Of a DNA stretch of 64,000 nucleotides, positions 53,199 to 63,937 are shown in pieces (positions within the stretch are counted from its first letter, which is position 1; each line of letters starts with the position of its first letter). The notes below the pieces were generated by a model. That model was not told where the DNA came from, did no database searches, and worked only from the letters and a program-made list of their open reading frames with translations. Origin of the DNA: Komagataeibacter oboediens (lineage in GTDB: Bacteria; Pseudomonadota; Alphaproteobacteria; Acetobacterales; Acetobacteraceae); NCBI RefSeq assembly GCF_003207815.1, contig NZ_NKTX01000002.1, positions 1 through 64,000 of the forward strand. The letters run 5' to 3'. A program made the translations under genes and the position numbers.

Positions 53199-54677
53199 GT
53201 GATCCATATGCTCGATATCGCCTTTTCCGACGCAAGCCTGCCCGCCAGTGGCACCATTGCCATCCTTGCCGTATCCGGCGGGGCGCCCGCGGGTGCCCTT
53301 GCTACGCTGGACGCCGCGGTGGGCGGCGCGCTGACCCGGGCTGCGAAAGCCACAGGATTCGGCTTCGACGCCGCGAAAACCTGTGTCGTGCTGGCGCCCG
53401 GGGCGGGATATGACCGCGTGATCCTGGTGGGGCTGGGTGCCGTGGACGCGCTGGATGGCACCGTGGCAGAACAGGCCGGTGTGGCGGCCGCCCGCGCCCT
53501 GTCCGATGCGGGTACGTCCGGCGTGGTCGTGGCCGATGGCATCGCCCCCGACCTGACCGCCCATGTGGCGCTGGGTGTCGTGCTGGGCAGCTACCGTTTC
53601 GATTCGTACCGTACCCAGCCGCGCAAGGGCGATGCGGGCCCGCTGACAGCCGTGACCGTGGCCTGCGCCGATCCTGCCGCGGCACAGGCGGCATGGCAGC
53701 CGCTTTCGGCGGTGGCGCGCGGGGTGTTCCTGTGCCGTGACCTTGTATCCGAACCCGCGAACATGCTGCGCCCGCCGGAGTTCGAACAGCGCATTCTCGC
53801 CCTGCGTGACCTTGGGGTGGAAGTGGAGGTGCTGGACCGCGACGCCATGCACAAGCTGGGGTTTGGCGCCCTGCTGGGGGTGGCGCAGGGCAGTGACGCG
53901 CCGCCGCGCACGGTCATCATGCGCTGGAATGGCGGCACGGACGGGACCGCGCCGGTGGCCTTCGTCGGGAAGGGCGTGACCTTTGATTCGGGCGGCATCT
54001 CGATCAAGCCGGCGGCCGGCATGGATGAAATGAAAACCGACATGGCGGGAGCCGCCGCAGTGGTCGGCACCATGGCGGCACTTGCGGGCCGCAAGGCGAA
54101 GGTGAACGCCGTCGGTGTCGTGGGGCTGGTGGAAAACATGCTGTCGGGCAATGCGCAGCGTCCGGGCGACGTGGTGCGCACGGCAGCGGGCCAGACGGTC
54201 GAAGTGCTGAACACCGATGCCGAAGGCCGTCTCGTGCTGGCGGACGTGCTATGGTACACGCAGGACCGCTTCAAGCCGCGCATCATGGTCAACCTTGCCA
54301 CCCTGACCGGGGCGATCGTGGTCAGCCTGGGTGTCGAGCGCGCGGGCCTGTTCTCCAACAATGACGGCCTGGCAGGCCATCTGGCGACCACGGGGGAACA
54401 GACGGGCGAGAAGCTGTGGCGCATGCCCATGGACGCCAGCTACCTTGAACTGCTGCGTTCGGACATTGCTGACCTCAAGAACATCGGCGGGCGTCCCGGC
54501 GGGTCGATCACGGCGGCCAAGTTCCTTGAATGCTTTGTGAACGACGTGCCGTGGGCGCATCTGGACATCGCGGGCACGGCGTTTACGTCCAAGGCGACGT
54601 CGCATGCGCCCCGGGGGGCGACCGGCTTTGGCGTGCGCCTGCTCGATCGCATGGTCGGCACGTATTACGAAGGGTAA
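53199..54677 (+). CDS. pepA: leucyl aminopeptidase (M17)
   Basis: A 492-residue cytoplasmic, two-metal aminopeptidase of the hexameric M17 family. The C-terminal catalytic domain shows VGKGVTFDSGGISIKPA, DMAGAAAVVG, NTDAEGRLVLADVL and LTGAIVVSLG with the expected Lys, Asp, Glu and Arg active-site residues. The start is either GTG 53199, four bases after GGAG, or ATG 53208. E. coli PepA also binds DNA and represses carAB, and a carAB operon is present in this window, but no DNA-binding role is shown here. A small hairpin (CCTGCC/GGCAGG, 54680-54697) precedes holC. Confidence 0.96.
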   Translation: MIHMLDIAFSDASLPASGTIAILAVSGGAPAGALATLDAAVGGALTRAAKATGFGFDAAKTCVVLAPGAGYDRVILVGLGAVDALDGTVAEQAGVAAARALSDAGTSGVVVADGIAPDLTAHVALGVVLGSYRFDSYRTQPRKGDAGPLTAVTVACADPAAAQAAWQPLSAVARGVFLCRDLVSEPANMLRPPEFEQRILALRDLGVEVEVLDRDAMHKLGFGALLGVAQGSDAPPRTVIMRWNGGTDGTAPVAFVGKGVTFDSGGISIKPAAGMDEMKTDMAGAAAVVGTMAALAGRKAKVNAVGVVGLVENMLSGNAQRPGDVVRTAAGQTVEVLNTDAEGRLVLADVLWYTQDRFKPRIMVNLATLTGAIVVSLGVERAGLFSNNDGLAGHLATTGEQTGEKLWRMPMDASYLELLRSDIADLKNIGGRPGGSITAAKFLECFVNDVPWAHLDIAGTAFTSKATSHAPRGATGFGVRLLDRMVGTYYEG

Positions 54678-54719
54678 TGCCTGCCCCGCGCGGCAGGCCG
54701 GATCGGAACAGGGAACTCC

Positions 54720-55166
54720 ATGGCGCAGATCGGCTTCTATCACCTGACGCGTTCACCGGCGCTGGCGGTCCTGCCCGCGCTGCTGGGCCGGACGCTTGCG
54801 GCGGGAAAGCGGGCGGTGGTCCGCTGCGCCACGGCAGAACGGGTGCAGGAGCTTGATGACGGGCTGTGGCGGTCGACCGACCCGCTGTGGCTTCCCCATG
54901 GCACACAGGCCATGGGGCATGGGCCATGGCAGCCGATCTGGCTGACGGATGGTCAGGACATGCCCAACGGTGCGACCTTCGCCTTCCTGCTTGACGGGGT
55001 GGAAGTTGCCGACCTGTCCCCTTTCGAACGGGTGTTCGACCTGTTTGATGGCCATGATGAGGCCGCCGTCGCCAGTGCGCGCAGACGCTGGGTGGCATGG
55101 CGTGATGGTGGTCATGACCTGAGCTACTGGCAACAGCAGCCCAGAGGCTGGGCGCGTCGTAAATAG
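54720..55166 (+). CDS. holC: DNA polymerase III chi subunit
   Basis: A 148-residue chi subunit linking the clamp loader to single-strand binding protein. It has IGFYHLTRSPALAVLPALLGRTL, LWLPHGTQAMGHGPWQPIWL, FAFLLDGVEV and FERVFDLFDGHDEAAV. The match is through overall pattern, since the family is poorly conserved. It lies 42 bases after pepA, its usual neighbour. A CCCCGC-GCGGGG hairpin follows near 55175. Confidence 0.92.
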   Translation: MAQIGFYHLTRSPALAVLPALLGRTLAAGKRAVVRCATAERVQELDDGLWRSTDPLWLPHGTQAMGHGPWQPIWLTDGQDMPNGATFAFLLDGVEVADLSPFERVFDLFDGHDEAAVASARRRWVAWRDGGHDLSYWQQQPRGWARRK

Positions 55167-55216
55167 CCGCAGGCCCCGCTGCGGGGTGGCGGCATGGACG
55201 AAAGGCAGGTTGCGTA

Positions 55217-56068
55217 ATGAAGACGGTTACTTTCCCCAATGAAACCACGGTGCCCGCGCTGGGCATGGGCACATGGAACATGGGGGACAGCGACAGCCGC
55301 CGCGCGGATGAGATAAAGAGCATTCACGCAGGTCTCGACGCGGGGATCCGCGTGGTGGACACGGCGGAAATGTATGGCTCCGGCCGTTCCGAAAAACTGG
55401 TGGGCGAGGCGATAAGGGGACGGCGCGACGACGTGTTCCTTGTCAGCAAGGTCGTGCCCTCCAACGCATCGCGTACGGGCGTGCGCCGGGCGTGTGAAGC
55501 ATCACTCAAACGGCTGGGCACCGATTTCCTTGACCTTTACCTGCTGCACTGGCCCGGCAGCGTGCCGCTGGAGGAAACGCTGGCGGGATTCAGTGACCTG
55601 ATTGATGCGGGCCTGATCCGGAGCTGGGGCGTATCCAACTTCGATGCTGATGGCATGATGGAGGTCGAAAGCACACCGGCCAGCACGCCGTGCGCCGCAA
55701 ACCAGGTGCTGTACAGCCTTGATTACCGTGGCGTGGAATTCGACCTGCTGCAGCGTGACCGTGATGCAGGCGTCGTGACCATGGCCTATTCCCCGCTGGG
55801 GCAGGGGGGTGACCTGCTGCGCGCGCCGGTGCTCAGGCGCATAGCAAAGCGGCACAGCACGTCCCTCGGGCCGGCCACGACGGCGCAGATTGCGCTGGCA
55901 TGGGTGCTGCGACAGGAAAACGTGCTGGCCATTCCCAAGGCGGGCAGCCCGCGTCACCAGCATGAAAACTTCGCAGCAACCGAGATCACCTTGACGCGCG
56001 ATGATCTGGCGGAGATTGATGAAGCCATAGCGCCGCCGCGCCGCAAGGAGCCGCTGGCCATGATCTGA
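55217..56068 (+). CDS. aldo/keto reductase
   Basis: A 283-residue NADPH-dependent oxidoreductase of the AKR superfamily. The catalytic tetrad is visible: Asp and Tyr in VVDTAEMYGSG, Lys in FLVSKVV, His in LYLLHWPG. The NADPH phosphate site is AIPKAGSPRHQHEN. Closely related enzymes reduce small aldehydes and methylglyoxal or 2,5-diketogluconate; the substrate is open. Its stop is followed by a hairpin, CGCCCGG-CCTT-CCGGGCG (56071-56088), without a T run, then by the membrane complex genes. Confidence 0.92.
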   Translation: MKTVTFPNETTVPALGMGTWNMGDSDSRRADEIKSIHAGLDAGIRVVDTAEMYGSGRSEKLVGEAIRGRRDDVFLVSKVVPSNASRTGVRRACEASLKRLGTDFLDLYLLHWPGSVPLEETLAGFSDLIDAGLIRSWGVSNFDADGMMEVESTPASTPCAANQVLYSLDYRGVEFDLLQRDRDAGVVTMAYSPLGQGGDLLRAPVLRRIAKRHSTSLGPATTAQIALAWVLRQENVLAIPKAGSPRHQHENFAATEITLTRDDLAEIDEAIAPPRRKEPLAMI

Positions 56069-56126: not shown

Positions 56127-57863
56127 GTGACCGTGCTGCTGCTAGCGGTGGCCAGCGTGCCGCCAGCCTGTGGTTTACGGCAGATGGCCACGATGGTGCC
56201 TGTCCTGCGCTGCGGGTGGGTGGCGCTGTGCATCATGGCCATCCTGTCCTGCCTCGGGCTGGAATTGCCGGGCGGCATTGCGCCATGGCCCGGTTTTTCA
56301 GGTGACGTGCATGATGTTGCCCTGCTGGTGCCGCTGGGCATTGTCGGGGTGGCGGCGTCCGGCGCGCGCGGTGCTGCGGCCTGCGCGGGGGCGGCACTTG
56401 CCGTGATCGGCGGGCCACCCCTGTCCTGCGTGGGGGCGGGATGGATCCTGATCGCACGCAGGGATGGCCCGCACGATGATATGGCGCGGCAGGCGCCGGA
56501 CCTGATTGCCCTGCTGCTCATGGCGGCGGTGCTGCTGTTTCCGCGTCCGGCGGGCTGGCTGCTGCCCGGGCTGTGCTGGGTTGCCACGCGGGGGCTGCTG
56601 GGCCTGTCCTTTTCGCTGCGCGTGTCGCCGCGTGGCCTGCGTCCCTTCCATATGGCGGATATTGCCGCGATGGTCGCGGCCATGGCGCTGTGGCGGCATT
56701 TGCCTGCTGGCGGCATGGTGGGGGACATGCGGTGGGGTGGCGTGCTGATCGTCGCCGGCTGCCTGCTGTACATGACGGCTTCGTGGCGGGCGCTGTGTGC
56801 GGGGGACGGGCGCAGGGTCATGACGGGACTGATGGGGGGCACGGGGGCGCTGGTGATCGTGCTGGCGGGGCTGGGGCTGCTGGCCCGTGCCGATGACCTG
56901 CCCGCCATGGCCGTCTGCGCCAGCCGTACGTTCATGCTGGTGGCTGGCATGCTGCTGACATGGATGTTCATGGCGCGTGCGATGGATGTGATGGAACGCG
57001 AGGCCGGTGCCCTGATATTGACCCGTCTGGGTGGTCTGGGTGTGCTGATGCCGCGCCTGTCGGCCCTGTTTTCCATCGGGCTGCTGGCGGAAAGCGGACT
57101 GCCGCCGCTGCTGGGTTTCTCCATAATCTGGATGCTGCTGCGCCTGCTGGCGGCCATGCCGCGTGGCGGGGGGCTGGGCGGGGACCTGCCGTTGCTGCTC
57201 GCACTGCTGGCACTAGGGATCGGGTGGGCGGTGCGCATGCTGGCGCTTGTGCGCATCGTGGCGGTCATGCTGTGCGGCAGGCCACGCACGCCGCGCGGGG
57301 CGGGTGCTGCTGATCCGTCGGGGCGGGACATGGCGGCCATCGTGCTGGCGGCCCTGCCGGTGCTGTGCGTGTCCGTCTGGCCGGGATACTGGCTGGGGCT
57401 TCTGGCGGGCGCAGGGACGGCAGGGGCCGGGGACAATGTCGCGCTGGCGTCGCCCGACGGGGCGGCGGTGCTGCATCCCGCGCGGCTGTGCCTGCTGGTG
57501 GCTGTGGTGGGGGGTGTGGTCATGGTGGTGCGGCGCATGGCCTGCCCCACGCCCGCCCGTCAGGTCGCGGGGTGGCAGCAGGGTGCGCCCCCCGTGCCGC
57601 CGTGGATGGTCTTTGGCGACCCGCTGACGCAGGTGGGGCCGGGCAATTCCGTGCGTATGCTGCTGGATATGGTGGGAACGGTCGTGGTGCGCAGGCGGCT
57701 CATGCGCGATTACGTGCGCCTGCGGCGGCGTGGCGCGCGGGTATGGCCCCTGCTGGCGCAATATGTGGGCGACATGCGCCAGGGTGGCATGACGGTGTCC
57801 GCGCCGGTGATGATGGTCATGGCGTGCGTGGCGGCACTCATATTCATTGCATGGCATGGATAG
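56127..57863 (+). CDS. hydrogenase-4 component B-like (HyfB/NuoL-type) membrane subunit
   Basis: A 578-residue, very hydrophobic protein with about 14-16 membrane helices and a cytosolic C-terminal part (NSVRMLLDMVGTVVVRRRLM). It is the antiporter-type subunit of a complex of the Hyf/Hyc/complex I family, judged mainly by gene context and by GLLAESGLPPLLGFSIIWMLLR and the ASWRALCAGDGRRVMTG helix. It is shorter than E. coli HyfB (672) and lacks a clear K-x-A-x-x-P-x-H-x-W-L-P motif, so its proton-pumping ability is uncertain. GTG 56127 is the first canonical start, but GGGAGGG at 56094-56100 points to an ATC/ATT codon at 56106/56109 in the same frame. Confidence 0.78.
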   Translation: MTVLLLAVASVPPACGLRQMATMVPVLRCGWVALCIMAILSCLGLELPGGIAPWPGFSGDVHDVALLVPLGIVGVAASGARGAAACAGAALAVIGGPPLSCVGAGWILIARRDGPHDDMARQAPDLIALLLMAAVLLFPRPAGWLLPGLCWVATRGLLGLSFSLRVSPRGLRPFHMADIAAMVAAMALWRHLPAGGMVGDMRWGGVLIVAGCLLYMTASWRALCAGDGRRVMTGLMGGTGALVIVLAGLGLLARADDLPAMAVCASRTFMLVAGMLLTWMFMARAMDVMEREAGALILTRLGGLGVLMPRLSALFSIGLLAESGLPPLLGFSIIWMLLRLLAAMPRGGGLGGDLPLLLALLALGIGWAVRMLALVRIVAVMLCGRPRTPRGAGAADPSGRDMAAIVLAALPVLCVSVWPGYWLGLLAGAGTAGAGDNVALASPDGAAVLHPARLCLLVAVVGGVVMVVRRMACPTPARQVAGWQQGAPPVPPWMVFGDPLTQVGPGNSVRMLLDMVGTVVVRRRLMRDYVRLRRRGARVWPLLAQYVGDMRQGGMTVSAPVMMVMACVAALIFIAWHG

Positions 57864-58836
57864 CGGCATGATGACGTCATTCATGCTGGCCGCGCGGATG
57901 CAGGCCCTCCTGCTTGCGGGCTGTCATATGGCGCTGGTCCTGCTGGGCGCGCCGGTATGGATCGGCCTGCTGCGCTGGATGGCGGCGGTGATGGAAGGGG
58001 AACGCCGCCTGCCGGACCCGACCGCGCACTGGCGCGTGCTGCTGCATGCATGGCGGCAGGTGGGCGTGCGGTCGGCTGCGGGCGCGCAGGTGACGGCGGT
58101 TGCCCCATGGCTGGCGCTGGCGGCGGGCATGGGGGCGACGCTACTGGTGCCGTCCTTTTCCATCGGCATGCCCGGGGGGGACCTGTCGGATGTGCTGATT
58201 ATCGGCGGATTGCTGGAAATGGCCTTTCTTGCGCTGGTGGTGGCGGCCCTTGCGCCGGGGCTGGCGCGACCGGGGCATGCGGGGCTGCGGGCCGTGGCGG
58301 GGGGGATCATGATCCAGCCGGTCATGCTGCTGGCCTGCACGGTGCTGGGCATGTGCCTGCCTGATGGCACGCTGGCGGGACTGGTGCGGCAGGCGCATGT
58401 GGCGGACATGAACCTTGTGCGCGTGCCGCTGGCGCTGGTTGCCGGTGCGCTGGTGCTGGGGGCGGTCGGGGAGGGGGACGGAACGACATCAAGGCTGTTT
58501 TCGGCCATGCTGGAGGACCTTGCCGGCCCCGATCGCGCCGTGGCCCAGTATGCGCGCGACCTGCTGGCGGTAGTGTGGATGATGCTGGCGCGTGACCTGA
58601 TCTGGCCTGAAGGAATTGCGGAGCCCGACATCCTGCCCCGTTCGGGGGTGCTGGTGCCCATGCTGGTGGCGGTCGCGCTGTGGGTGGCGCATATGCTGCT
58701 GGCCTGCGGGTGTGTTGCGGCGATACGGGTTTTCGTGGTGTCGGGGCAGCGGCATGCGGGCTGGCGGGGCGGTCTTGCGCTGTTATGCGCCATCATGGCC
58801 GGGGTGCTGCTGTTTGCCGGGCGGGGGATGGGCTGA
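57856..58836 (+). CDS. HyfC/NuoH-like membrane subunit
   Basis: A 326-residue protein with about eight membrane helices, in the position of HyfC/HycD (NuoH) in related operons. MAFLALVVAALAPGLARPG and the segment MLEDLAGPDRAVAQYARDLL, which replaces the usual E-x4-E-Y-S-G region, support the relationship. It should join the membrane arm to the peripheral arm near the quinone-type site. The start is ATG 57856 (8-base overlap with the gene before) or 57868. The next gene begins two bases after its stop. Confidence 0.78.
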   Translation: MDSGMMTSFMLAARMQALLLAGCHMALVLLGAPVWIGLLRWMAAVMEGERRLPDPTAHWRVLLHAWRQVGVRSAAGAQVTAVAPWLALAAGMGATLLVPSFSIGMPGGDLSDVLIIGGLLEMAFLALVVAALAPGLARPGHAGLRAVAGGIMIQPVMLLACTVLGMCLPDGTLAGLVRQAHVADMNLVRVPLALVAGALVLGAVGEGDGTTSRLFSAMLEDLAGPDRAVAQYARDLLAVVWMMLARDLIWPEGIAEPDILPRSGVLVPMLVAVALWVAHMLLACGCVAAIRVFVVSGQRHAGWRGGLALLCAIMAGVLLFAGRGMG

Positions 58837-58838
58837 GC

Positions 58839-59384
58839 ATGCTTGTACTGCTTTTGGGGGTGCTGGTCATTCTCTCGCTCTCGACGTCGGGGGAGCGGGG
58901 CGGCGGTCCGGTCTGGCATGCGGTGTGCACGGCGGCATGCGTGTGCCTGTCGCGCTGGGTGCAGGGGCGGGTCGGGCTGGCCTGCGTCATGGCCGTGGGG
59001 CTTGCAGCCCTGTTCGGGCTGCTGGGCGTGCAGATGCTGCATATTCCCGCGGCCCGGCGCGAACGTAGCGGCCTGCGGCTTGCCGGTGGTCTGGCCTGTG
59101 TCGCGGTGCTGACACAGGTCATCATGCAGGGATCGCAGGACGGCATGACGGCGCGCCTTATGGGCATGACGGGTCTGGCCGCCATCCTGTGTGGTGCATG
59201 GAGCGCGTGTATCGCGCGCGGCCCGGTCGCGTTGTGCGCGGGGCTGGCCTGTGGGCTGGACGGCGTCATGCTGCTGGCGGCACGCACGGATGACCTGCTG
59301 GTCATGGGGGAGGTGATTGTCGCGGCGATCGGGCTGAATGTCCTGCTGGCCGCGGCGCCGCGCGTGCATGGAGGGGGGGAATGA
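58839..59384 (+). CDS. HyfE-like (hydrogenase-4 component E) membrane subunit
   Basis: A 181-residue protein of about six membrane helices, beginning LVLLLGVLVILSLSTSG, with VGLAALFGLLGVQMLHIPAARRE in the middle. Size and place correspond to HyfE (NuoK-like fused) of hydrogenase-4 complexes. ATG 58839 is two bases after the previous stop. Its last four bases overlap the next gene (ATGA). Confidence 0.72.
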   Translation: MLVLLLGVLVILSLSTSGERGGGPVWHAVCTAACVCLSRWVQGRVGLACVMAVGLAALFGLLGVQMLHIPAARRERSGLRLAGGLACVAVLTQVIMQGSQDGMTARLMGMTGLAAILCGAWSACIARGPVALCAGLACGLDGVMLLAARTDDLLVMGEVIVAAIGLNVLLAAAPRVHGGGE

Positions 59385-60451
59385 TGTCGCTTTCCCTTTA
59401 TGCCAGCCTGCTGGGCGGCTGGCTGGCGCTGGCATTGACCGCCCTGCTGGCGACCGGAGCGACACAGGCGTTGCGCGTGCTTCTGGCGGTGCTGTTTCTG
59501 GTGCTGTGCGGCGTGGCTGGTGGTCTGTCGGGCGATGTGGCGGGGTGCATGATGGAAACGGCGCCCGCGCTGGCATTATGCGTGTGGGTTTTCGGGGCGC
59601 GGCACGAACCGGGCAACGCATCGCGCGGGGCGGCCGTGTTGCCTTTTTTCCTGTCGGGCATTGCCGCCCTTGCCATCGCTTTCGGGCGGTGTGACCTGCT
59701 TGGGCTGTTTCTGGGCTGCGGGCTTGTGGCCCGTCTGGCGCTGGCGATTGGCCCGCGGGGGCTGGAACAGGACGGCTGGCAGGTTCTGCGCATGGAACTG
59801 TGCGGGTTGCTGATGGCGCAGGGGGGCCTGTTCGTGTTGCAGGCGGGATGGGGGCACATGCAGGATCAGGCCGGGGCGATCCTGCTGGTGGGCGGGCTGC
59901 TGCTGGCCTGTGCCATCATGGGTCGGCCGGGGCAGGCCGGGCCGGGATGGAATATGGAAATTCTGGCCGTTCTGCCGGTCGTGGCGCGGGCGGGGGGGAT
60001 GTGGCCGGTCCTGCTGCCTGTCCTGACCTTCATGGGATGTGTGTGCCTGTCATGGGTGGTCCTGTCACGTCGGGAACGCATCTCTGGCGGGGGGTACTGG
60101 GCTGGTTGGGCCGTGCTGGCTGCGGGCCTGCCGGATGGCGGCATGGGGGGGCTACCACTGGCTGCCTGCCTGCTGGTCATGGCCTGCATGCCGTTATCGG
60201 ATGCTCTGCCGGAGGGATACATGACGTGGCCGCCCTTCCTGCCCGGCATGGCGGCGGGGCTCGTGCTGGTCGGGGAAATGGGCACCATGGCCCCCGTGGC
60301 GTTTGCAGCCGGTGCCAGCCTGTGGCCGATGCTGGCGGCGCGTGGTCGGGCAGGCCATGGCGGGCGGCCATGGGTACAGGCGACGTTATTGCTGGTGATC
60401 GGGTGCGCGGTGCTTGCCACTGTTGCGTACCGGGTGGGGAGGGGATCATGA
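59381..60451 (+). CDS. HyfF/NuoN-like membrane subunit (short)
   Basis: A 356-residue hydrophobic protein of about 10-11 helices, in the place of HyfF, a second antiporter-like subunit. E. coli HyfF is 526 residues, so this one is considerably shorter. The helix-breaking antiporter motifs are not evident. Similarity is therefore weak and the call rests partly on gene order. The gene overlaps both neighbours by four bases (59381-59384 and 60448-60451), showing tight translational coupling. Confidence 0.68.
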   Translation: MMSLSLYASLLGGWLALALTALLATGATQALRVLLAVLFLVLCGVAGGLSGDVAGCMMETAPALALCVWVFGARHEPGNASRGAAVLPFFLSGIAALAIAFGRCDLLGLFLGCGLVARLALAIGPRGLEQDGWQVLRMELCGLLMAQGGLFVLQAGWGHMQDQAGAILLVGGLLLACAIMGRPGQAGPGWNMEILAVLPVVARAGGMWPVLLPVLTFMGCVCLSWVVLSRRERISGGGYWAGWAVLAAGLPDGGMGGLPLAACLLVMACMPLSDALPEGYMTWPPFLPGMAAGLVLVGEMGTMAPVAFAAGASLWPMLAARGRAGHGGRPWVQATLLLVIGCAVLATVAYRVGRGS

Positions 60452-61914
60452 CTGCGCAGGTGCCGGACCTGATCCGCAGCGGGATGCCCTCGGCCTGTGC
60501 CGGGCGTTTCGTGCTGGACGGTGGGACGTGGCGCGACATGGTGGAAAACCTGCGCCATTCCACCCTGCCGCTGCTGGGCCTGTGGTCGGATGGGGTGCAG
60601 GTACATGCCCTGTTCATGGAGGGGACACGTCCCCTGCTGGCCAGTGTCGCGGTCATGGACGGGCGCTACCTTGCCCTGTCCCCCGTACGGGCCGGGGCGG
60701 CGGCTTATGAACGCATCACGCAGGACCTGTGGGGAATCGAGGGCATGGGGGCGACAGACAGCGCCCCATGGCTGGATCAGGGGCGGTGGCCGGTAACATG
60801 GCCCCTGCATGACCGGCCACCGCCCGCGCCTGCACCACCCGAAGGCGTGGAATTCACCGATGATGCCGCCATGGTGCAGGCCGGGGGCACCGTTGTGGGG
60901 TATGGCCCGGCGGAGGGGGATTTCCAGTCTCCCTTCCACCTGCGTCTGGGCCTGCCGGGGGAACGGATCATGCAGGTCCGCACCCGTATGGGTTACGCCC
61001 ATCGTGGCCTGTGCGCGCGCATGCGTGGTGCCACGGTGGCGCAGGCAGCCCGACTGGTCGCCCGGATCGATGCAACGGTTACGGTGGCCCATCAGGTGGC
61101 CTTTGCCCGCGCACTGGGGGCTGCAGGGGAACATGCAGGCGCGGATATGGATGATGCGGCCATGTTCGTAAGCGAACTGGAACGCATTGCGATCCATCTG
61201 GACACGCTGGCCACGGCGGCGGAACTGCTGGCCGATGGACGTTTTGCCATTCTGGCCGCAACCCTGCTGGAGCGTGTGCGGCAGGCCTGCCGGGAGGGCT
61301 GTGGCAGTCGCCTGCTGTTTGACGTGCTGCCGCCTGCGGGCGACGCGGGACGGACCGTATCCATTCCCATGGAGGTCCTGACGGAACTGCGGACGGGCTG
61401 CGCCACGTTGCGCCACCTGTTCTGGCGGCCGCGTGGCATGGCCATGCAGGCGCGCGGGCGGGGTATCGTGCCGGCGGATGTCGCCCGCAGGTGGGGCATT
61501 GCGGGCTGTGTGGGCCGGGCGTCTGGCGTTGAAGGCGACCTGCGGCCGTATGTGTCACGGTCCGCAGGGCGGGAGGGCACGGGGGGCGATGTGGCTGACC
61601 GTCTGGCCATGCGCCTGCATGAGGTGGAAATGGCCGTTGACATCCTGTCCACGTTCGATGGCGCGGCCGTCAGCATGCCCGCCGGATATGACGTGCATGG
61701 GTCAGGAGAAGGTATGGGCTGCGTGGAAGGCCCCACCGGGCCTGTCTGGCACTGGGTCAGGTTGGCGCATGGCCGTGTGGCGGCATGGTGGTGTGGTGAC
61801 GCGTCCCTGCTACTGTTTCAGGCGCTGCCCGGCATATTGTCCGGCGCGGTGTATGAGGACGTGCCGCTGATCCTGACATCGCTTGGCCTGTCGGCTGCGG
61901 GCGCGGATCTGTAG
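60448..61914 (+). CDS. hydrogenase large-subunit-like protein without NiFe ligands (HyfG/NuoCD-like)
   Basis: A 488-residue protein with a NuoC-like domain (about 20-115) fused to a NuoD/large-subunit domain (about 150-488; GYGPAEGDFQSPFHLRLGLPGE, RMGYAHRGLCARM, DMDDAAMFVSELERIAIHLD). In NiFe hydrogenases two Cys-x-x-Cys pairs bind the metal centre. Here the first site is occupied by IDATVTVAHQ (about 207-216), and the protein ends in LTSLGLSAAGADL where DPCxxC would be. No NiFe site can form. The start is ATG 60448; a much longer open frame upstream is a reading-frame shadow of the previous gene. It should form the peripheral arm with the next gene product. Confidence 0.85.
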   Translation: MTAQVPDLIRSGMPSACAGRFVLDGGTWRDMVENLRHSTLPLLGLWSDGVQVHALFMEGTRPLLASVAVMDGRYLALSPVRAGAAAYERITQDLWGIEGMGATDSAPWLDQGRWPVTWPLHDRPPPAPAPPEGVEFTDDAAMVQAGGTVVGYGPAEGDFQSPFHLRLGLPGERIMQVRTRMGYAHRGLCARMRGATVAQAARLVARIDATVTVAHQVAFARALGAAGEHAGADMDDAAMFVSELERIAIHLDTLATAAELLADGRFAILAATLLERVRQACREGCGSRLLFDVLPPAGDAGRTVSIPMEVLTELRTGCATLRHLFWRPRGMAMQARGRGIVPADVARRWGIAGCVGRASGVEGDLRPYVSRSAGREGTGGDVADRLAMRLHEVEMAVDILSTFDGAAVSMPAGYDVHGSGEGMGCVEGPTGPVWHWVRLAHGRVAAWWCGDASLLLFQALPGILSGAVYEDVPLILTSLGLSAAGADL

Positions 61915-61923
61915 GGTGGGGCC

Positions 61924-62373
61924 ATGGCGTATCTGAACCTGTTCTGGCCGGAGGGTGCCGTGCTGCCGCGCATGGTGCCGCTGGATATCTTTCACATGGA
62001 AACCGGGGGCTGCGCGGGCTGTGCGATTGAACTGCGCAGCCTGTCGCGCGCCCTGGTGGAAGGACATTCCGATATCCGTTTTGTCTCTACACCGCGACAG
62101 GCGGGGCTGCTGCTGGTGACGGGCAGCCTGACGGTGGATATGGCCCCGGTTGTCGAACTGGCATGGCAGGCCATGCCAGGCACGCGCCTGCTGGCCGCGG
62201 TGGGGGACTGCGCGGTGGATGGGGGAATATTTGCGCCCGGTTATGCGGTTCTGGGCGGGGTGGGCGGCCGTGCGCGCGCCAGCCTGCTGCTGCCCGGATG
62301 CCCGCCATCGCCTGCGGAAGTCCTTGATGCCCTGATCCGCTGGCGCACGCAGGGCGAAGGGGAGGCGACCTGA
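61924..62373 (+). CDS. HyfI/NuoB-like iron-sulfur subunit
   Basis: A 149-residue protein of the NuoB/HycG family. All four ligands of the proximal [4Fe-4S] cluster are present: Cys30 and Cys33 in ETGGCAGCAIEL, Cys96 in AVGDCAV, and Cys126 in LLPGCPPSPAEVL. So the small subunit is intact even though the large subunit has lost its metal site. It starts nine bases after the large subunit gene and ends the six-gene group. No ferredoxin-like HyfA/HyfH gene or maturation protease follows; next comes pssA on the other strand. Confidence 0.9.
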   Translation: MAYLNLFWPEGAVLPRMVPLDIFHMETGGCAGCAIELRSLSRALVEGHSDIRFVSTPRQAGLLLVTGSLTVDMAPVVELAWQAMPGTRLLAAVGDCAVDGGIFAPGYAVLGGVGGRARASLLLPGCPPSPAEVLDALIRWRTQGEGEAT

Positions 62374-62395: not shown

Positions 62396-63253
62396 TCAGG
62401 TCGAAGGGACGGTTGCGGGCGGGTCGTCGCTTTCCTGCAATGCCTCGGCTTCGCGGCGCAGGCGGTGGAAGCTCCGCCTGCTCATGGGAAGCAGCAGGAT
62501 GTAGATGATCCCCGCCGCCGCCAGCGCGCCCCACGGTTCGGCCACCAGAACGGCGGCATAGGCCCCCGTGCCCAGCATGGTGGGGAGGATCATGGGCGAG
62601 GGGACCTTGAAGTTCTTGAACGACCAGACCGGCAGGGTCGACACCAGCAGGAAGGCCGTGCCGCTGAGCGTCAGCGCGGGCAGGAGCGGGGCGCGCGTCA
62701 GTTCATACAGCCAGTCACAGTGCAGGTGCTGCGCTTCCAGCCCGAGAAACAGCGGAAACAGCGCCAGCCCCGCGCCCGCCGGGGCGGGAACGCCGGTGAA
62801 GAAGTTGCTGGCGTATTTGGGCTGGTTGGCGTCGTCATCCAGGCTGGCATTGAAGCGCGCCAGGCGCAGCGCCATGCAGACCGTGAACATGATGCACGGG
62901 ATGTAGCCAAACCGCCCGCCTTCATGCAGTGCCCACAGGTACAGGACAAAGGCGGGGGCTACGCCAAAGCACAGGAAATCCGACAGGCTGTCGAATTCCG
63001 CGCCAAAGCGACTGGTGCCGCGTAGCAGGCGTGCGATTCGTCCGTCCAGCCCATCAATGCAGGCGGCGATCAGCAGCGCGGTCGCAGCACTGCCAAAGCG
63101 TCCTTCCAGCCCGAATCGCATGCCCGTCAGGCCCGCGCACAGGCCCAGCATGGTCATGAGGTTTGGGATCATCCGGTTGAACGACAGGCCCCGCACGCGG
63201 GGGCGCTGGCGTTTTTTCAACCGTCGGATACGGCGTGTCGGCGGGGTGGCCAT
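62396..63253 (-). CDS. pssA: CDP-diacylglycerol-serine O-phosphatidyltransferase
   Basis: A 285-residue inner-membrane enzyme that forms phosphatidylserine from CDP-diacylglycerol and serine. The CDP-alcohol phosphotransferase motif is complete in DGLDGRIARLLRG...FGAEFDSLSDF (D-G-x2-A-R-x8-G-x3-D-x3-D). About seven helices follow a basic N-terminus (RRIRRLKKRQRPRVR). It lies six bases after psd on the minus strand, so the two steps to phosphatidylethanolamine are encoded together. It is convergent with the hydrogenase-like group across 22 bases. Confidence 0.95.
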   Translation of the reverse strand: MATPPTRRIRRLKKRQRPRVRGLSFNRMIPNLMTMLGLCAGLTGMRFGLEGRFGSAATALLIAACIDGLDGRIARLLRGTSRFGAEFDSLSDFLCFGVAPAFVLYLWALHEGGRFGYIPCIMFTVCMALRLARFNASLDDDANQPKYASNFFTGVPAPAGAGLALFPLFLGLEAQHLHCDWLYELTRAPLLPALTLSGTAFLLVSTLPVWSFKNFKVPSPMILPTMLGTGAYAAVLVAEPWGALAAAGIIYILLLPMSRRSFHRLRREAEALQESDDPPATVPST

Positions 63254-63259
63254 GCCCGC

Positions 63260-63937
63260 TTAAAGCCGCGCCATCACGGTTTCGCCGCCAATCATGGTCT
63301 GGCCGACTTCCACCAGTGGCGTGACATCGGGCGGCAGGTACAGGTCGGTGCGTGAGCCGAAGCGGATCAGCCCGAAGCGTTCGCCGGTTTCGTACTGCAT
63401 GCCTTCTTCCGCATCGCACAGGATACGGCGCGCGATCAGCCCCGCAATCTGGACCACGGCAACCTGGCGGCCATCCTTCAGCGTCACGCGCAGCGCATTG
63501 CGCTCGTTCAGTTCGGATGCCTTGTCCAGGCTGGCGTTCAGGAACTGCCCGGCATGGTAGGCGATTTTCGTCACGGTGCCCGCGACCGGCATGCGGTTCA
63601 CATGCACGTCCAGAACAGACAGGAAGGTGGCGATACGCCAGACCGGCGCATCCCCCATGTCCAGTTCCGGCGGCGGGGCCACTTTCTCGATCGAGACGAC
63701 ATGCCCGTCCGCCGGGGCAACCGCCACGTTTGGCTCGGCCGGGGTGACGCGTTCGGGGTCACGGAAGAAATACAGGCAGAAGCCGAAGAACAGGCCACTG
63801 GCTGTACCAAGCCATCTGGTCACCCGGAACGGCAGTAGCCGACCGATGATGGCCCCGGCCCCCGATGCAAGGAGAAAGGGGCGCGCGGCCGGGTGCGGCG
63901 GTGCAATGACAAGCTTGAGGGATTGAATCAGCGACAT
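63260..63937 (-). CDS. psd: phosphatidylserine decarboxylase
   Basis: A 225-residue proenzyme that converts phosphatidylserine to phosphatidylethanolamine. The N-terminal hydrophobic region ([16 protein letters not shown]) anchors it; [11 protein letters not shown] and [15 protein letters not shown] are typical. The self-cleavage site is the GS in [14 protein letters not shown], giving the pyruvoyl group. This is the short form (about 215-235 residues) common in alphaproteobacteria. It precedes pssA by six bases. The ribosome-binding site is weak. The 63 bases beyond it hold no gene that can be read. Confidence 0.95.

Follow-up and report, generated by a model that had tools for sequence, protein, structure and literature searches.

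What does a membrane complex built like a hydrogenase do once its metal site is gone? This question is raised by six genes at positions 56127-62373 of a 64,000-nucleotide stretch of the Komagataeibacter oboediens genome (assembly GCF_003207815.1, contig NZ_NKTX01000002.1, positions 1 to 64,000; hereafter the window), which encode HyfB-, HyfC-, HyfE-, HyfF-, HyfG- and HyfI-like proteins, here called subunits B, C, E, F, G and I. Our answer, to which as a whole we give a probability of roughly 0.6, is that they probably encode a non-pumping membrane iron–sulphur (Fe-S) complex derived from the energy-converting hydrogenase related (Ehr) complexes. Its history would run from a group 4 hydrogenase through an alphaproteobacterial Ehr complex to the six-gene membrane complex of the window. 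The nickel–iron (NiFe) site would have been lost before the sampled alphaproteobacterial clade spread; later, within the Acetobacteraceae, all four membrane subunits would have lost the Glu, Lys and Asp residues of their proton pathways, and the former active-site pocket would have drifted. The six proteins presumably still assemble, with one [4Fe-4S] cluster where the large and small subunits meet, into a complex that would neither make H2 nor move protons, and that may serve as a non-translocating, membrane-anchored Fe-S module passing or sensing electrons.

The six genes and the large subunit

The genes are tightly packed open reading frames (ORFs) on the plus strand; B/C, E/F and F/G overlap, and the gaps between C and E and between G and I are 2 and 9 bases. 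They are listed here with the codons that face the NiFe cysteines of Escherichia coli HycE:

56127-57863, + strand: B, HyfB-like antiporter-type membrane subunit, 578 amino acids, no lysine; the predicted GTG start is the first in frame
57856-58836, + strand: C, HyfC/NuoH-like membrane subunit, 326 amino acids from the ATG at 57856 (329 from the TTG at 57847), no lysine
58839-59384, + strand: E, HyfE-like membrane subunit, 181 amino acids, no lysine
59381-60451, + strand: F, HyfF-like antiporter-type membrane subunit, 356 amino acids, no lysine
60448-61914, + strand: G, large subunit (NuoC-like plus NuoD/HycE-like), 488 amino acids, NiFe cysteines replaced
61924-62373, + strand: I, HyfI/NuoB-like small subunit, 149 amino acids, Fe-S cysteines 30, 33, 96 and 126
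61069-61080, + strand: codons D208 to V211 of G, opposite the first NiFe cysteine pair of HycE (C241, C244)
61891-61902, + strand: codons S482 to G485 of G, opposite the second NiFe cysteine pair of HycE (C531, C534)

Two subunits only score above the Pfam cut-offs, G (PF00346, 36.9 bits) and I (PF01058, 73.9 bits). B falls slightly short (20.6 against 21.5), and its best NCBIfam model, 'hydrogenase 4 subunit B', gives 43 bits, far under the cut-off of 667; in the same two collections C has a single weak match to an unrelated family, and E and F have none. B, C, E and F are therefore identified by gene order and by their relatives. At one related locus (L053) the F orthologue scores 535 bits against the HyfF model ('hydrogenase 4 subunit F', cut-off 533) and the B orthologue 594 bits against the HyfB model, below its cut-off of 667; gene order and alignment to such relatives, which match HyfB and HyfF, mark B and F as antiporter-like (Mrp-type) membrane subunits. 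The structural model of F (predicted local distance difference test score, pLDDT, 85), a protein of 356 residues against 526 in E. coli HyfF, has NuoM/NuoN-type chains as its PDB matches. The ORF layout, the Pfam matches of G and I, and the gene order and relatives thus agree with an earlier reading of the window, made from its letters without database searches (the sequence-only reading), in which six packed Hyf-like genes were recognized. Of 43 relatives of the small subunit in named records, 42 carry titles of Komagataeibacter, Novacetimonas, Gluconacetobacter, Acetobacter or Gluconobacter, and the remaining one is an unclassified metagenome-assembled genome (MAG); the best full-length match, from K. 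intermedius, is 95% identical.

That reading had also claimed that the large subunit lacks all four NiFe-binding cysteines, and the alignment with HycE confirms it: Cys241, Cys244, Cys531 and Cys534 correspond to D208, V211, S482 and G485 of G, and the C-terminus of G stops where HycE and HyfG carry a C-terminal tail. As a control, all four cysteines were seen in E. coli HycE and HyfG and in L216, a Hyf-like locus from the Acetobacteraceae. A frame error hiding the cysteines was ruled out, as the reading frame is uninterrupted and can be aligned right to its end with relatives likewise devoid of them; no CxxC pair was recovered, and other residues fill the positions. Across 81 loci, namely the window and 80 others from Acetobacteraceae genomes, the four positions hold no cysteine in 79 and one in two (L043, L066), and they hold none in the 17 loci from other families and the eight second copies described below.

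A profile of 68 large subunits (A1, made without L114) ranked HycE first among solved structures (7z0s, 246 bits), followed by the Pyrococcus furiosus MBH (218 bits) and Nqo4 (200 bits), and the best Foldseek match of the G model (pLDDT 91) was again HycE (7z0s_E), with a template modelling (TM) score of 0.82. In a 41-row tree of large subunits, which took 11 of the 12 NuoD loci of the class (the frame of L179 was too short), the 24 Ehr-like rows form one clade (support 100/99), neighboured by the four-cysteine L216 and then by HyfG/HycE, and the 14 NuoD rows stand apart (100/100). Because NuoD stands apart and the Ehr-like clade adjoins first L216 and then HyfG/HycE, the tree groups G with the group 4 hydrogenases rather than with NuoD, within a clade of Ehr-like proteins; published Ehr sequences lie outside the tree and are likened to the clade by description. 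Placement inside the ordinary NuoCD of complex I, the outcome that would have told against the sequence-only reading, was not found, and forcing three Komagataeibacter rows into NuoD was rejected (approximately unbiased, AU, test, p 0.00075). L216 itself (G113:C107) is a Hyf-like operon with four NiFe cysteines in a family member that also has two Ehr-like copies.

Proton-pathway residues, pocket and Fe-S cysteines

For the membrane arm, 13 positions were read by alignment with E. coli Hyf proteins; they were chosen from knowledge of complex I, from conservation in the group called pump-intact below, and in part from passages of a paper on the formate hydrogenlyase structure (PMC9474812). HyfB E142/K221/K252/E407 correspond to G105/L157/V183/I334 of B, HyfC D53/E146/E213/E218 to V61/Q154/S216/D221 of C, HyfE E159/E178 to L140/G157 of E, and HyfF E143/K232/E406 to G112/A176/A292 of F. 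The window thus retains none of the 13 exactly, and one when swaps are allowed (D221 of C, a conservative change from Glu that is still acidic). Not one lysine occurs among the 1,444 residues of its four membrane proteins, with C counted in its longer reading.

The same count was made in the 66 of the 81 loci in which all four membrane subunits were found, the other 15 being left out. Exact scores of 9-13 were obtained for 24 loci (pump-intact; three fall below 12 solely through unread gaps) and of 0-3 for 40 (pump-less; 26 of them score 0), and two are intermediate. L081 (8/13) and L088 (6/13) resemble intermediate stages of the loss. With D/E and K/R/H swaps allowed the 40 pump-less loci score 0-5, and 35 of them have no match at the seven antiporter positions, the other five having one; a gap was scored as no match, and 12 of the 40 have one to three gaps. 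After removal of near-duplicates, 33 pump-less stand against 23 intact loci. Pump-less loci have lower median lysine counts than pump-intact ones in B, C and F, and similar counts in E (48 or fewer against 21 loci). When 40 pump-less and 27 pump-intact loci were compared (nine near-duplicate or partial rows dropped, L114 left out), the pump-less group proved to have kept few of the columns conserved at 90% in the pump-intact group in the membrane subunits (B, 17/159; C, 12/131; E, 2/73; F, 6/138), but more in G (70/184) and I (31/73). Measured by these columns, the membrane arm has drifted most and the Fe-S module least.

The pocket of the large subunit was compared in the same manner. NuoD of complex I has a quinone-site His and Tyr; at the position of the tyrosine, which sits beside the quinone, G has an alanine in the alignment. 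The loop His of this site appears also in passages of PMC9474812, which name HycE His188 in the beta1-beta2 loop and Arg478 and Asp529 in the canopy, and set His284, Glu437 and Arg395 in a putative conserved proton route. G lacks the loop His (its position is E156), the canopy Arg and the canopy Asp. For the wider comparison 53 pump-intact loci (25 from other families or second copies, and 28 from the family) were set against 48 pump-less loci; the latter exceed the 40 above because the 13-position count needs all four membrane subunits and a later alignment was used there, and L114 is included in both counts although its large-subunit frame seems broken. His188 is kept in 52 of 53 pump-intact loci versus four of 48 pump-less ones, and Arg478 in 53 of 53 versus 24 of 48; the Asp529 position is Asn in all 53 and mostly Gly (34) or Ala (9) in the 48. 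The former NiFe cysteine positions are mostly Ser/Ser/Ser/Gly in the pump-intact loci, whereas in the pump-less ones the first pair is highly variable and the second is Ser in 31 and Gly in 39. Largely retained in the 48 are Arg239 (48), His248 (48), His284 (41), Arg395 (46) and Glu437 (43). From these residues, the pump-intact group has a defined, conserved site, of which the pump-less group has lost part.

The suggestion in the sequence-only reading of a functional membrane arm that converts energy with a different redox partner (perhaps quinone) is not supported by this comparison: the arm has lost its proton-pathway residues, the pocket its His, Arg and Asp, and the Tyr position is Ala. 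The window complex may have a quinone site of a different kind; a coupled quinone reductase is unlikely.

The small subunit, as had been claimed, keeps its four cluster cysteines (C30, C33, C96 and C126), with the CxxC spacing of the hydrogenase type, whereas NuoB has adjacent cysteines. Where a small subunit was found in the family, all four are present in 75 of 79 loci, and in 35 of the 39 such loci that are pump-less; in other families 16 of the 17 loci have all four.

Selection, origin and competing explanations

Between the window and each of eight other Komagataeibacter, the ratio of nonsynonymous to synonymous substitution rates (dN/dS) is 0.10-0.48 in the six genes. In every gene and in all eight comparisons dS exceeds dN, by 3.5-8.8 standard errors, the compared stretches contain no internal stop, and the lowest ratio belongs to the small subunit in five of the eight. 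Other pump-less pairs gave 0.06-0.12 (L050/L100), 0.055-0.115 (L047/L107), 0.12-0.32 (L037/L038), 0.06-0.28 (L057/L058), 0.18-0.45 (L040/L060), 0.15-0.40 (L108/L109, I undefined) and 0.09-0.39 (three pairs among L049, L090 and L091); the pair L059/L114, in which the frame of L114 looks broken, gave 0.42-1.08. Among neighbouring genes pepA, partly covered and absent from L126, gave 0.04-0.18. As judged from these codon substitutions, the six genes are under purifying but relaxed selection.

The direction of the loss was read from relatives. In a scan of 144 genomes of the class, three of them Acetobacteraceae, 15 of the 141 genomes outside the family had a match of at least 490 bits; these 15 genomes supplied 17 loci, among which all 13 residues are present in 15, while L200 and L203 are intact as far as they were read. 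Within the family, eight of the 79 genomes examined have a second listed copy above 330 bits, and all eight second copies are pump-intact where read (one position of L213 carries E instead of D, and the stretch of L212 is without B and I). The first copy is partly or wholly pump-less in seven of these eight genomes (L046, L062, L072, in which only F was read, L081, L088, L092 and L104). Because the relatives in other families and the second copies in the Acetobacteraceae are pump-intact where read, the loss is derived. The genomes with two copies suggest, without proving it, that the first copy was free to drift while it was redundant, and that in acetic acid bacteria the drifted copy alone was later retained. 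A quick tree of 90 rows, made after ten near-duplicate or partial rows had been removed and without L114, puts the pump-less loci mainly into one clade of 40, with a support of 92, under the 95 mark, in the Shimodaira–Hasegawa-like approximate likelihood ratio test (SH-aLRT), and L099 and L104 stand apart; the 'lost' labels of L095, where B and F were not found, and of L064, where F reads ETE, were artefacts and were set aside.

Among 299 sampled Acetobacteraceae genomes, A1 finds a match at 1e-80 in 246, some of which may be true hydrogenases such as L216. The Ehr-like gene is the sole profile match, with no NuoD seen, in eight of the 79 genomes examined, five of them rated 100% complete (G250, G279, G158, G201, G061) and three 85-96%, and genomes of 2.0-2.5 Mb retain it (G040, G122, G173). 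Outside the family, a 0.9-Mb alphaproteobacterial genome rated 100% complete has as its sole profile match an Ehr-like large subunit that is pump-intact where read (L203, G439:C21).

The proposal of an Ehr-derived, non-pumping Fe-S complex builds on homology, phylogenetic place, residue losses, kept Fe-S cysteines and purifying selection, which the alignments, trees and codon comparisons establish. As the metal site and the proton residues are gone and yet selection persists, the complex probably has another job than making H2 or pumping protons; as the cluster is kept, a non-translocating role in electron transfer or redox sensing is our first choice. This final step is the weakest, and we would expect it to be wrong rather oftener than right. 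Tentative too, and likewise less likely than not, is the view of the complex as a pseudo-enzyme, that is, a six-subunit complex I relative without its old catalytic site or proton channels, which selection would maintain throughout the acetic acid bacteria for a task outside bioenergetics. Every stage of the change would then be represented by living relatives: pump-intact, partly lost and pump-less ones, and a genus that is also without most Fe-S cysteines.

Several observations weigh against our proposal. Constraint is relaxed: the neighbours pss and psd have dN/dS of 0.02-0.09, below all six genes, an aldo/keto reductase gene has 0.09-0.19, mostly below them, and two pump-intact pairs are lower as well (0.01-0.14 and 0.13-0.24). 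Three of the four Fe-S cysteines are lost in L049, L090 and L091, of one genus, and one in L113, the gene being kept in each, and the pump-intact L197 of another family has three; the cluster is therefore not required everywhere. The pump-less group shares only two weak columns of newly conserved residues. The membrane proteins are so divergent that single positions may be misaligned: the partner of HyfB K221 is L157 in one alignment, and a proline followed by an arginine in another. The link from residue to function is not absolute either, since several such HycC residues can, according to a passage of PMC9474812, be changed without loss of H2 production. Lastly, Foldseek places E. coli complex I NuoCD (TM 0.81) barely below HycE. 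The small-subunit genes with three replaced cysteines are open in all three loci (L049, 10445-10891; L090, 7194-7640; L091, 7255-7701).

Four other explanations were weighed. The six proteins could form a scaffold without redox function, with a structural, assembly or regulatory role in the membrane, the cluster just stabilizing the fold. The loss of pocket and proton residues would fit, and the idea is kept alive by the genus that lost most cysteines, which retains all six genes at the ratios given above; it is nevertheless unlikely, though to be taken seriously, in view of the four cysteines kept in most pump-less loci and of the small subunit being so often the most constrained of the six in Komagataeibacter. 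A relic in slow decay, of little use and held open for now by weak or leftover constraint, would account for the few membrane-arm columns kept, the absence of shared gains and the dN/dS well above pss and psd, as well as for the apparently broken large-subunit frame of L114 and the small subunits not found near L042 and L062. The dN/dS values make this less likely, to the point of being improbable: dS exceeds dN throughout, no stop interrupts the compared stretches, pump-less pairs of other genera go down to 0.055-0.12, and the operon persists in 2.0-2.5 Mb genomes and in five rated 100% complete without another profile match.

It is very improbable that the window encodes a functional Ehr complex which converts energy with another substrate, perhaps quinone, and pumps through other residues than the known ones. 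Pump-intact relatives have a complete proton pathway and the conserved Ser/Ser/Ser/Gly site, which makes a complex of this kind probable in other parts of the clade, and some charges remain in the window, such as D221 of C and an arginine near the lost lysine of transmembrane helix 7 of B; the lack of any lysine in four membrane proteins, the score of 0/13 and the loss of the loop His and of the canopy Arg and Asp speak against it. An ordinary or duplicated respiratory complex I, for which NuoD and NuoB as the best NCBIfam models of G and I, all below cut-offs, might be cited, has a negligible chance, being rejected by the phylogeny under the model used (AU p 0.00075) and opposed by the CxxC of I, by the lack of NuoE/F/G-type genes among the flanking genes scanned and by two other NuoD-type genes in the same genome.

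These two genes are L001 (G000:C201:162337-163149) and L002 (G000:C177:21998-22810). L002 groups with E. coli NuoCD in the 41-row tree and may be a plasmid-type complex I like the plasmid-borne one that is reported for K. saccharivorans in a passage of PMC12361115. The eight flanking genes are of housekeeping type by Pfam: FAD-linked oxidase, Sua5, inositol monophosphatase and, nearest to the operon,

53199-56068: M17 aminopeptidase, HolC and aldo/keto reductase genes (Pfam)
62396-63937: CDP-alcohol phosphatidyltransferase and phosphatidylserine decarboxylase genes (Pfam)

Similar-looking neighbours were noticed by eye around the operon in L034-L038 and several other acetic acid bacteria. That no ferredoxin or maturation genes lie nearby, as the sequence-only reading had it, holds for the eight Pfam-scanned flanking genes, and HypD, the sole Hyp maturation gene searched, had no match in the whole genome; the HypD search was positive in four of 14 control genomes, including E. 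coli.

Comparison with known systems

The passages on Ehr in PMC10284858 and PMC6349859, both of which cite Marreiros et al. 2013 as their source, describe antiporter-like membrane subunits, a large subunit of the group 4 type that has no NiFe CxxC motifs, and an unknown function; coupling of a redox reaction to charge translocation is suspected in PMC6349859. The likeness to Ehr seen in the sequence-only reading is upheld by the missing NiFe cysteines and by a tree position on the group 4 hydrogenase side, the Ehr being likened by description. Since an unknown reaction is assumed to drive ion pumping in Ehr complexes, a clade that sheds the pump residues and keeps the Fe-S module would separate the two functions in nature, and a comparison of pump-intact with pump-less complexes could reveal what the redox module does alone. 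Hydrogenase-4 or formate hydrogenlyase labels on these genes give no warrant for inferring that hydrogen is metabolized or energy conserved; should the complex turn out to be needed, it would be a complex I relative serving without transport. No description of this operon in acetic acid bacteria was found in a literature search outside which most subscription papers lay; NiFe hydrogenase genes are mentioned for some Acetobacter MAGs in a passage of PMC12131263.

So, the window shares with Ehr a group-4-type large subunit without the four NiFe cysteines and antiporter-like membrane subunits, and differs in that its four membrane subunits have lost the translocation residues (0/13, as far as residues alone tell). 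With E. coli Hyf/Hyc it has in common the B-C-E-F-G-I gene order, the large-subunit fold (7z0s_E) and the hydrogenase-type CxxC of the small subunit; however, it lacks the NiFe cysteines, the HyfA-, HyfD- and HyfH-type genes in the operon, the C-terminal tail of the large subunit and the proton-pathway residues. The MBH and MBS of P. furiosus are members of the superfamily by the large-subunit profile (218 and 143 bits), farther away than HycE. The pump-intact alphaproteobacterial Ehr-like operons (L190-L206, L208-L215) belong to the same clade, have the same gene set where read and likewise lack the NiFe cysteines; in contrast to the window, they still have the pump residues as well as the loop His and canopy Arg.

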